Assembly (NCBI RefSeq): GCF_022760755.1 | Contig: NZ_JAIVFP010000001.1 | Coordinates: 451,501-515,500 of the forward strand | Length of the DNA: 64,000 nucleotides | Direction of reading: 5' to 3' | DNA from: Candidatus Rhodoblastus alkanivorans | GTDB lineage: Bacteria; Pseudomonadota; Alphaproteobacteria; Rhizobiales; Beijerinckiaceae | Shown here: piece after piece, positions 2,150 to 10,587 of the stretch | Layout: each line of letters starts with the position of its first letter | How positions within the stretch are numbered: the stretch's first letter is position 1 | Made by a program: the position numbers and the translations under genes | Notes under the pieces: model-generated | Databases searched by the model: none | What the model saw: only the letters and a program-made list of their open reading frames with translations | What the model was told of the DNA's origin: nothing

Positions 2150-3733
2150 TCATTTCTTCTTCCCGAATGGGTTAAGACCGGAGAGCCCGCCAAGCCCGGG
2201 CAGCCCAGCCGGCGGCTTGGGTCCGCTGAGGCCCGGCAGCCCCCCGGGCGCGTTGGCGGGCAAGCCGGGTTTCGGAGCAAAGGCGCCGGGCGGCGGGTTT
2301 TGCGGAATGCCCGCGCCCATCCCGGCGCCGCCGCCAAACTTGTTCTGTAATTCGGCGATCTGCTCGGGCGAGGGCTGTGGCATGCCGCCGCCAAGGCCGA
2401 ACATTTGCGCCATCTGCGCCATCGGCCCGCGCTTGGCGCCGCCGAGCGATTTCATCATGTCCGCCATCGTCCGGTGCTGCTTGAGCAGGCGGTTGACGTC
2501 CTCGACCTTCATGCCCGAACCGGCGGCGATACGCTTTTTCCTCGACGCTTTCAAAATGTCGGGATTGCGGCGCTCCTGCGGCGTCATCGAGAGAATGATG
2601 GCGCGCTGGCGGGCGATCATTTTGCCGTCGATTTTGGCGGCGGCCATCTGCTCCTTGATTTTTCCCATGCCGGGCAGAAGGCCCATGATTCCGCCAAGGC
2701 CGCCGAGCTTGTCCACTTGCGCCAGCTGTTCGGCCATGTCGTCGAGGTCGAACTTGCCTTTGCGCATCTTCTCGGCAATGCGCTGCGCCTTGTCGGCGTC
2801 GATGGTTTCGGCGGCCTTTTCGACGAGGGCGACGATGTCGCCCATGCCGAGAATGCGATTGGCAATGCGCTGGGGATGGAAATCGTCCAGCGCATCCATT
2901 TTTTCGCCAGTGCCGATCAGCTTGATCGGCTTGCCCGTGACGGCGCGCATCGAGAGCGCGGCGCCGCCGCGCCCGTCGCCGTCGGCGCGGGTCAGGACGA
3001 TGCCGGTGATGCCGACGCGCTGGTCGAAATTCTTGGCGAGATTGACCGCGTCCTGGCCGGTGAGTGAATCGGCGACCAGCAGAATTTCGTGGGGATTGGA
3101 AGCGGCCTTGATCTCGGCCATTTCCGCCATCAGCGGCTCGTCGATATGGGTCCGGCCGGCGGTGTCGAGCAGCACGACGTCAAAGCCTTGAAGGCGCGCG
3201 GCCTCTTCGGCGCGCCTTGCGATCTGGACCGGGGTCTGGCCCGCCACGATCGGCAGGGTGGCGACGTCGACCTGGCGGCCCAATACGGCGAGTTGTTCCT
3301 GCGCGGCCGGGCGCTTGACGTCAAGCGAGGCCATCAGCACCCGCTTTTTGAAGCGGTCGGTCAGGCGCTTGGCGATCTTGGCTGTGGTGGTGGTCTTGCC
3401 CGCGCCCTGGAGGCCGACCATCATGATCGCGACGGGCGGCGCCGCGTTGAGGTCGATCGGCTCGGCGTCGGAGCCCAAGGTCTCGATCAGGACGTCATTG
3501 ACGATCTTGACGACCATCTGGCCGGGCGTGACCGATTTCAGCACTTCGGCGCCGACCGCCCGGGCGCGGGCTTTATCCACGAACGAGCGCACGACGTCCA
3601 AGGCCACGTCGGCTTCGAGCAGGGCGCGACGCACTTCGCGCATGGCCGCGGCGACGTCTTCCTCGGTGAGGGCGCCGCGGCGGGTGAGACTGTCGAATAT
3701 GCCGGAGAGCTTTTCCGAAAGGCCCTCGAACAT
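2150..3733 (-). CDS. ffh: Signal recognition particle protein Ffh (SRP54)
   Basis: 527 residues. Ffh binds 4.5S RNA and signal peptides of nascent membrane proteins and delivers them to FtsY. The N domain starts MFEGLSEKLSGIFDSL. The NG GTPase motifs are GLQGAGKTTTTAKIA, DTAGRTHIDEPL and TRADGDGRGG, and the Met-rich M domain lies around residues 320-440. The C-terminal ~85 residues are an extra Gly/Pro/Met-rich tail. The start is the second in-frame ATG, which matches the conserved N terminus; an ATG 18 bases upstream adds only MKKDYF. The partner ftsY is also in this window. Confidence 0.95.
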   Translation of the reverse strand: MFEGLSEKLSGIFDSLTRRGALTEEDVAAAMREVRRALLEADVALDVVRSFVDKARARAVGAEVLKSVTPGQMVVKIVNDVLIETLGSDAEPIDLNAAPPVAIMMVGLQGAGKTTTTAKIAKRLTDRFKKRVLMASLDVKRPAAQEQLAVLGRQVDVATLPIVAGQTPVQIARRAEEAARLQGFDVVLLDTAGRTHIDEPLMAEMAEIKAASNPHEILLVADSLTGQDAVNLAKNFDQRVGITGIVLTRADGDGRGGAALSMRAVTGKPIKLIGTGEKMDALDDFHPQRIANRILGMGDIVALVEKAAETIDADKAQRIAEKMRKGKFDLDDMAEQLAQVDKLGGLGGIMGLLPGMGKIKEQMAAAKIDGKMIARQRAIILSMTPQERRNPDILKASRKKRIAAGSGMKVEDVNRLLKQHRTMADMMKSLGGAKRGPMAQMAQMFGLGGGMPQPSPEQIAELQNKFGGGAGMGAGIPQNPPPGAFAPKPGLPANAPGGLPGLSGPKPPAGLPGLGGLSGLNPFGKKK

Positions 3734-8540: not shown

Positions 8541-8555
8541 TTAGAATCATTCTAC
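8541..8555. promoter_or_regulatory. ICE-like (Irr-type) palindrome upstream of the DUF2325 gene
   Basis: TTAGAATCATTCTAC is 14/15 symmetrical to the pattern TTAGAA-N3-TTCTAA described for iron control elements bound by Irr in Rhizobiales. It lies about 70 bp before the DUF2325 ATG, a suitable place for an operator. A second close match lies at 10573-10587. Confidence 0.5.
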
Positions 8556-8623: not shown

Positions 8624-9910
8624 ATGACGAAGAAACGGGATTTCGGCGTGCCGGCGGCGTTGACCGCCGCGGCTTTCAATGCGCTCAACCCGCCCTTGAC
8701 CGCCCTGCTTCGGGCGCCGCCCGCCGAATCCCATGCGCTTCGACGCGCCGCGGCGTTGCGGAGGCTGAATATTTGGGAGGTTCGCGGCGCGTCGTTGTGT
8801 TCGATCGTCGGCACATGCCTGACCTTGAATGAATTGCGGCGGATCGCCAAAAAATGCCGCTTCATTGAGGATCCGTACGGTTTGACGGATTACGACATCC
8901 ACGGCCTGATCACGTCGCGCATGAACAACGACAATCGGGTGTCGCGCGCCGTCACCAAACATCTCGATGCGAAATTCGAAGGCGCTGTGCGCAAATGCCG
9001 TGGACTGGACGACGAGGAGGCTTTCCTGCGCTATTGGGAAAGCGCGGTGGAGGGCGGACTTGTCCCGGGCGCATATTGGGCGCTGGTCACTCATCCGAAT
9101 TTGCCCATGAGCGTCGAAGCGCGCGTCTATGGCGAGATTCACATGATGTCGCATATGTGCGGCGCTTCGAATCGCGGCGACGCGCGGGCGATAGCCGAAG
9201 CTCGCCGCGAAAACGGCGAAATCGCCCGCCGCCTCGCCGCGCGGGTCGCGGAACGGGATGAAAGGTTGAATGCGCTTGGCGAACAGCTCGGGGCGCTACG
9301 GGCCAAGCTCCGCGCGCAGGAGCCGCTCGTCGCCGAATGTCTTCGGTTGCGGGAAACCCTTTCGCGCAACGACCTGGCGCAGGAACTCGCGGCGCGCAAG
9401 TCCGAGCTCATCGCCGCGAATCGGGAAAAGGCCGAATTGCGCAAGAGCCTCGCCAAGGCCGAACTGGGTCTGGAGAGCCTTCGGGCTCGTCTCGACGAAA
9501 GCGAACGGCGCGCGGCGGCGCAGGCGGCTTCATCCGGCCAATGTGACGACGGCGTGCCGGCCGTCGAAGGAAACGAGCCGCCTTGCGACAATCTTTGCGG
9601 ACGCTGTTTGCTCTATGTCGGCGGCCGGCCTCAGACGGTCTGCCAGTTGCGCGCTCTCGTCATGGGCCTCAACGGGCGATTGCTGCATCACGATGGCGGA
9701 ATCGAACAGTCGACGGCGCGGCTAGGCGAGCTTGTGCGCCAGGCCGATCAGGTCTTCTTTCCAGTGAATTGCGTCAGCCACGGCGCCATGGATTACGTCA
9801 AGAAATTATGTGAGAGCCACGGCAAGCCGATGGTTCCGCTGCGCACGGCCGGCGTCACCACCTTCATGCGCGCAATCGGCGCATCGGACGGAGGCCAAGC
9901 GACATTGTAA
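8624..9910 (+). CDS. DUF2325 domain protein with Cys/His clusters and coiled coil
   Basis: 428 residues from ATG 8624, preceded by AAGAGGA. The N-terminal domain has CSIVGTC (59-65), YWALVTHP (151-158) and HMMSH (173-177). Residues about 185-300 are a charged coiled coil. The C-terminal DUF2325 domain contains CX3CX2C at Cys321/325/328 followed by YVGGR, HHDGG (355-359), PVNCVSH (Cys383, His386) and Cys396. The function of DUF2325 is not established. The many conserved Cys and His residues suggest metal or Fe-S binding. The ICE-like site upstream and the irr-like remnant downstream hint at an iron-linked role; that is inference. Confidence 0.8.
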   Translation: MTKKRDFGVPAALTAAAFNALNPPLTALLRAPPAESHALRRAAALRRLNIWEVRGASLCSIVGTCLTLNELRRIAKKCRFIEDPYGLTDYDIHGLITSRMNNDNRVSRAVTKHLDAKFEGAVRKCRGLDDEEAFLRYWESAVEGGLVPGAYWALVTHPNLPMSVEARVYGEIHMMSHMCGASNRGDARAIAEARRENGEIARRLAARVAERDERLNALGEQLGALRAKLRAQEPLVAECLRLRETLSRNDLAQELAARKSELIAANREKAELRKSLAKAELGLESLRARLDESERRAAAQAASSGQCDDGVPAVEGNEPPCDNLCGRCLLYVGGRPQTVCQLRALVMGLNGRLLHHDGGIEQSTARLGELVRQADQVFFPVNCVSHGAMDYVKKLCESHGKPMVPLRTAGVTTFMRAIGASDGGQATL

Positions 9911-10150
9911 TCCAAGGCCAGGGCGACGATCGTTCGACAGCGCGTTCTTATGCAGGCTTCGGAGCAGAAATCGCCATAATGTTCGGAAAGGCGCGCAACC
10001 GCCATTTCCGTCAATGCGGCTTCGTCCCATGGTGTGGAAGACGGGGAAGGGCGAATTGCGTCCGGAATTCTGGCGTCGGTCTTTCGGCTTTCGCGTTCGA
10101 TGTCGTAAATGTCCCGGCGCCTCCGCTCTCAGGTCTTCGCCGGGGATGGA
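9911..10150. other. Gap between the DUF2325 gene and the irr remnant
   Basis: No recognised gene. On the minus strand one frame stays open from about 10128 to 9793 with coding-like composition (for example SEHYGDFCSEACIRTRC), but it has no convincing start and overlaps the end of the DUF2325 gene. It may be residue of a gene that followed irr. Confidence 0.25.
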
Positions 10151-10487
10151 TCAGGCCTGGTCCCGAAGGCGGACGATGATGTCGACGCCGACGATCTTGC
10201 GTCCCGGCGGCGGCTGAATCCTCAATTGCTGAACCAGGTCGCGCGGTGCGTCCGAGAGCGTTTCGCGGTCTTCGTCGAAATAATGGGCATGCGGTCCGGT
10301 GTCGGTGTCGTACCAAACGGTCTGGCCGTAAAGGGCGATTTCCCGAATAAGCCCCGAGGCTGATGCGTTGCCGGGTGGGATGCAGATCGACTGCGCGCAG
10401 CGGGGTCCGGATCATGCGCGCCAATGGACCGCCGCGCCAGTCATAGGCGATCTGGGTGTTGGTTTTGCCGATCCCGAAAGTCTCCAT
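10151..10487 (-). pseudogene. irr-like Fur-family regulator, internally deleted and frameshifted
   Basis: From ATG 10487 the frame runs into DLHPTRQRISLG, the characteristic start of the Irr/Fur DNA-binding domain (usually LRPTRQRMALG). At about 10348-10358 the similarity jumps frame and continues as GLIREIALYGQTVWYDTDTG, then HAHYFDEDRETL and a VGVDIIVRLRDQA end with TGA 10151-10153. The 35-40 residues expected between, including the recognition helix (SLATVYNTL in relatives), are missing. The product cannot be a normal DNA-binding Irr. An ICE-like palindrome lies about 86 bp upstream, consistent with former autoregulation. Confidence 0.75.
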
Positions 10488-10572
10488 GACCCCCCCCGAC
10501 GCACGACCTTGTCTTCATTTTCGCGGGGAGGCTAACAATGAGACGGCGCCCGCTCCAGCGACAAGCAATTAA

Positions 10573-10587
10573 TTAGAGCTATTCTAA
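10573..10587. promoter_or_regulatory. ICE-like palindrome between the irr remnant and carbonic anhydrase
   Basis: TTAGAGCTATTCTAA has perfect 5-bp arms (TTAGA/TCTAA) and matches TTAGAA-N3-TTCTAA except at one position. It lies about 86 bp upstream of the irr-like remnant on the minus strand and about 100 bp upstream of the carbonic anhydrase gene on the plus strand, so it could serve either direction. Confidence 0.5.

Follow-up and report, generated by a model that had tools for sequence, protein, structure and literature searches.

Irr acts on ICE boxes and has an HXH heme site (PMC3413700, PMC7762939). Ferrosome genes have been described separately: the fez cluster of R. palustris CGA009 comprises RPA2333-2338 (PMC12016538), fezAB of C. 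difficile is repressed by Fur (PMC12574912), and FezC is a DUF4405-like cytochrome (PMC10979944). DUF2325 is noted as a possible encapsulin cargo (PMC6934571), and in Campylobacter violet-blue light induces it strongly (PMC9426514). In the literature searched, no paper combined "ferrosome" with "Irr" or "Rhodoblastus" with "Irr". The locus reported here lies in the window, our term for the whole 64,000-nucleotide stretch analysed, and resembles known Irr in that both of its halves match the protein, the HXH motif is kept and an Irr-box-like palindrome stands upstream, whereas its DNA-binding helices are deleted, its frame is lost and it belongs to a third type at the level of the genus. Relatives in which this gene is intact resemble ferrosome fez clusters in that they carry a heavy-metal P-type ATPase whose N-terminus is HMA_2-like, a small protein rich in lysine and an HMA_2 protein that matches DUF4405 weakly; in contrast to the described clusters, any ferrosome of theirs is putative, the genome of the window is without fez-like genes, and the regulator proposed for the genus is Irr, not Fur.

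The deletion in the irr-like gene

The irr-like feature at 10151-10487 is a real pseudogene, ordinary in itself. On the minus strand, positions 10487-10353 give 45 codons (METFG...HPTRQRISLG; METFGIGKTNTQIAYDWRGGPLARMIRTPLRAVDLHPTRQRISLG) and positions 10354-10151 give, in the next frame, 67 codons and a stop (GLIREIALYG...VRLRDQA), beginning GLIREIALYGQTVWYDTDTG and reading in full GLIREIALYGQTVWYDTDTGPHAHYFDEDRETLSDAPRDLVQQLRIQPPPGRKIVGVDIIVRLRDQA, which bears out both frames of an internally deleted irr-like gene as a preliminary description had read them. The two halves match intact type-B Irr, the type defined below, in the same order and on the same strand: the 5' part (10353-10487) corresponds to residues 2-62 (E 5e-14, the end of the match extending beyond the junction), and the 3' part (10151-10354), which holds the wing and the dimer/heme domain, to residues 87-154 (E 4e-26). 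Since no Irr match was found elsewhere in the 64-kb window with three Irr queries (E <= 1e-3), the matches of the two halves are not chance.

Alignment with five intact relatives, namely four type-B genes and the type-A gene of the same genome, showed a deletion of 128 nt at the 10354/10355 junction; each of the five has 128 letters opposite the gap, and the broken copy of the related genome G004 has 124. The length is not a multiple of 3 and the frame of the pseudogene is shifted. The gap removes 43 residues, positions 46-88 of the L038 protein counted with one codon ahead of its Met, and takes with it most of helix 2 and what follows up to and including the recognition helix; the loss of the recognition-helix region described earlier thus stands, and its size, put at 35-40 residues, was underestimated. 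In a structural model the lost helices would be 40-52 (most of it), 59-68 and 75-87, although this model comes from a single sequence (mean pLDDT 61, 73-84 in the blocks around the gap, with low confidence for the C-terminal half) and is a guide only. Alignments to 6h1c and 1mzb place the missing residues in the Fur segment through the helix before the wing, which we take to be the recognition helix. With 43 residues and the frame lost, the pseudogene is without the winged-helix DNA-binding domain of a working Irr, and because the 128-nt deletion removed helices and shifted the frame, it does not encode a complete DNA-binding Irr.

The C-terminal dimer/metal domain does still read, as had been stated: 10354-10151 is open to the stop, and the HXH motif is present as HAH. 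Against the NCBIfam models (NF045678 IrrA, cut-off 150; NF045677 Irr, cut-off 170) this remnant reached 53.3 bits with IrrA (E 2.6e-14), below both cut-offs. Neither half is interrupted by a stop; no ATG, GTG or TTG start was found for the second half, over which an ATC opens a 78-aa frame, and a mechanically called ORF of 158 aa continues without a change of frame and, past the junction, bears no relation to Irr. Direct repeats at the deletion ends amounted to at most one shared base, judged by eye in the relatives' alignment and not in the lost ancestor, and a plasmid search with the locus DNA gave no match. A run of eight G lies at 10491-10498, just ahead of the pseudogene ATG.

Three types of Irr and the broken copies of type B

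The assembly (4.35 Mb, five contigs, 98.3% complete) contains three FUR-family genes above the Pfam cut-off (PF01475): L001, L002 and L003. L001 is the canonical Irr, passing both NCBIfam cut-offs (197.4 vs 150 and 195.5 vs 170 bits), and adjoins a gene that we presume to be fabA-like; L002 is a second intact Irr, here called type A, which falls just under them (149.0 vs 150 and 146.1 vs 170 bits) and whose type is present in 11/11 genus genomes; L003 we take to be Zur-like. An intact relative of the dead gene, from G008, scored above the first cut-off (159.3 vs 150 bits) and below the second (148.8 vs 170 bits). The dead gene is a third Irr type, B, found at the level of the genus and neither canonical nor type A. 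A search for a second intact Irr, recommended in the preliminary description, thus returned two, and that description's alternatives of a lost second copy or the loss of the only Irr both fall away. With two other types intact beside the dead one, the reshaping of global iron control that had been suggested need not follow. Irr-like genes of a further type, C, were seen in G002 (L050 4799-5197) and, cut by the contig end, in G004 (L049 3132-3410); their TTKEVKAGL stands for the usual SLATVYNTL helix and CATPQR for RPTRQR, and judging from these residues the type C protein may have another DNA target or none.

Type-B irr (irrB) is present in six of the 11 genus genomes, intact in G001, G005, G006 and G008 and broken in the genome of the window and in G004, the former by the 128-nt deletion and the latter by a separate 4-nt gap. 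All four intact genes are full length and the G004 island locus has no irr, which disposes of a conserved short form in relatives. The METFG start of the pseudogene matches type B. In a tree of the 5' half, the pseudogene, type B and (misplaced) outgroups stood apart from type A (99.4/98), and in one of the 3' half the pseudogene joined type B (89/58), whereas the full-length tree supported the grouping weakly (65.9/38). The pseudogene differs at 2 of 42 positions otherwise invariant, one being the Arg of LRPTRQR; the corresponding number is 0 to 3 for intact type-B genes and 3 for the G004 copy, so that this test shows no heavy decay. Pairwise dN of the 5' part was raised in the window copy (0.20-0.28 vs 0.01-0.10 among the other five) at a dS of 0.69-1.08, similar to that of G004 pairs (0.89-1.29); for the 3' part dN was 0.31-0.38 vs 0.07-0.21, with dS also higher for the window (1.03-1.46 vs 0.48-0.90). 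This pattern fits relaxed constraint, although an older split is possible and dS is near saturation.

The island, its palindromes and the fez and feo genes

The pseudogene belongs to an island between citE and can that occurs in the window and in G004; the other 9/11 genomes have a citE-can gap of 171-339 bases there, so that the idea of the same locus in all relatives was rejected. The window island holds a DUF2325 gene, the remnant of a small partner gene and the irr pseudogene, and the G004 island DUF2325 and the partner gene. DUF2325 is intact (8624-9910, plus strand; PF10087, 66.5 bits vs cut-off 33.6). The partner gene follows type-B irr in G001, G005, G006 and G008, and its remnant in the window (9793-10116, minus strand) matches over 9913-10116 at 40% identity (E 1e-6), with ATT in place of the aligned ATG (10110-10108) and a frame that runs on. 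Elsewhere it encodes about 87-92 aa (for example, L038 5942-6220), and it had no match in Pfam or NCBIfam. irrB, DUF2325 and the partner gene co-occur in the same 6/11 genomes. A tree built from type-A Irr together with five loci, for which asd, rlu and ftsY came from 7/11 genomes, joined G004 with G002 at 100/100 and left the position of the window genome unsupported; because irrB, DUF2325 and the partner gene are all absent from G002, there must have been either more than one loss of the island or its transfer between lineages.

Two palindromes of the pattern TTAGA-N5-TCTAA (at most one mismatch), which we assume to resemble the ICE consensus, occur in the window, compared with 0.14 expected and with 2/100 shuffles reaching two. 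One, without mismatch, lies at 10573-10587, upstream of the pseudogene and, on the other strand, of can; the other, with one mismatch, lies at 8541-8555, 68 bases ahead of the DUF2325 ATG, and has a counterpart at the same place in G004. The 140 kb examined of the G004 contig contain only two boxes, at the same two promoters, and a box upstream of can was seen in 2/11 genomes, the two with the island; at the broken G004 irrB, no box was found at two or fewer mismatches. Among the four genomes with fez, boxes precede irrB in 4/4, the HMA/fez operon in 4/4 and DUF2325/feoA in 3/4 (in G006 the box is 1.1 kb off DUF2325/feoA), with two further boxes beyond those promoters and one at type-A irr. 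The same kind of box stands at 10/11 type-A irr genes, and 418 kb of fez surroundings in other genera held four. By their likeness, the palindromes are candidate Irr boxes. The DUF2325 gene of the window is intact with its own Irr-box-like site although fez and feo are absent.

Orthologues of fezB and fezA (at least 88% identity at full length; an ATPase with an HMA-like N-terminus and a small companion) were found in 4/11 genomes, exactly those with intact irrB. FeoB is full length in these four and in G009, G010 has a partial match (30%), and none was found in the window genome (G000), G002, G003, G004 or G007. In the window genome the best ATPase match to fezB reached 36% without the N-terminus and the best fezA match E 0.15, and the two P-type ATPase matches at 60.4-62.0 kb of the window, considered as fez remnants, proved generic (26-33% identity). 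Thus both genomes with a broken irrB lack fez and FeoB; G002, G003, G007, G009 and G010 are without the whole set, apart from the FeoB kept by G009. In G005, irrB, the partner gene, an HMA gene, fezA and fezB, and further on DUF2325-feoA-feoB, all lie inside 19.5 kb. In G006 the genes from irrB to fezB lie together and other contigs carry DUF2325 and feoB, and G001 and G008 have fez-DUF2325-feoAB together, with irrB and the partner gene elsewhere and not beside fez. Adjoining the broken irrB of G004 is a fossil of the fezB 3' end (23 C-terminal residues, 83% identity, E 2e-5). The four genomes with fez fall into a single clade (100/100), so that the 4/4 agreement of fez with intact irrB may reflect one event. 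The name fez itself follows resemblance. The relatives' ATPase matched TIGR01525 strongly, at 473.9 bits, and Pfam support is suggestive: HMA_2 matches were 23.4 bits (below the cut-off of 30) and 30.0 bits (at it), and the DUF4405 match was weak (E 0.018, below cut-off).

FezB-like matches (E <= 1e-110) are sparse, in 15/298 genomes of the family, 14/397 of the order and 2/385 of the class. No Irr-type gene was found near fez at 23 loci outside the genus, drawn from 27 non-genus matches and covering mostly about 8 kb on each side, less at contig ends, so that the link between irrB and fez rests on one genus. FezB-like genes of other genera lay within about 8 kb of feoA/feoB at 5/10 order-level loci (L169, L170, L171, L172 and L176), and that of G401 is broken by an in-frame TAG and a frame change (L135 7853-9830).

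A probable regulator loss after loss of its module

We consider it likely that the type-B Irr pseudogene was a local regulator, orphaned and now decaying after the loss of a ferrous-iron module for uptake and storage. Type-B Irr would have governed the small partner gene, DUF2325, a ferrosome-like fez operon and feoAB, acting through the Irr-box palindromes; in a lineage without fez and feo, such as that of the window, it would have lost its job, irrB and the partner gene would be decaying, and DUF2325 and its box would persist, the box perhaps as a site for the Irr proteins that are left. An ordinary loss of a redundant paralogue, with type B a duplicate of type-A Irr and its fate unrelated to fez and feo, is less probable, at around one chance in five by our judgement. 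The retention of type-A Irr in all 11 genomes, the boxes at 10/11 of its genes and the confinement of the fez correlation to one clade would suit such a loss, against which speak the co-occurrence of irrB with DUF2325 and the partner gene, its position beside fez in two genomes and the fossil of fezB that adjoins the broken irrB of G004.

Two further explanations appear very improbable, to about the same degree. The C-terminal remnant might still be made, from a rare start or by recoding, as a partner dead in DNA binding, titrating heme or the other Irr proteins. The open reading of both halves, the dimer/heme domain with its HXH, the 78-aa frame from ATC and the kept promoter box are compatible with this, but the second half has no ATG, GTG or TTG start, no relative has the same short form, nonsynonymous change is raised and the partner gene is damaged. 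An assembly or sequencing error in a strain with a whole gene is hard to reconcile with a 128-nt loss, which is not a base-calling slip, with the damage to the neighbouring partner gene and with the absence of fez and feo. As a control, 19 ORFs common to the G004 contig and the window (200 aa or longer, 80% identity or higher), some of them maybe antisense shadows, were compared; 18 matched in one frame, and the second match of the exception, FtsY (2837-3538), lies inside a different, Ffh-like gene, leaving 0/19 collinear conserved ORFs broken. A looser set of 95 matches gave seven more with two frames, one of which (o213) is antisense to asd and rlu.

For the genus as a whole, we put forward more tentatively, at slightly under even confidence, that in Rhodoblastus-like bacteria a dedicated Irr paralogue governs a ferrosome-like store, feoAB and DUF2325 via Irr boxes, that this module was lost repeatedly, and that the window and G004 hold fossils of the regulator left after loss of its regulon. 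The intact Irr genes remove the worry that the genome lost its control of iron. More useful is the wider pattern, which suggests that an Irr paralogue, and not Fur, locally regulates a ferrosome-like module. Through it, DUF2325 and the unnamed small partner gene gain an iron context that is testable in Rhodoblastus acidophilus DSM 137.
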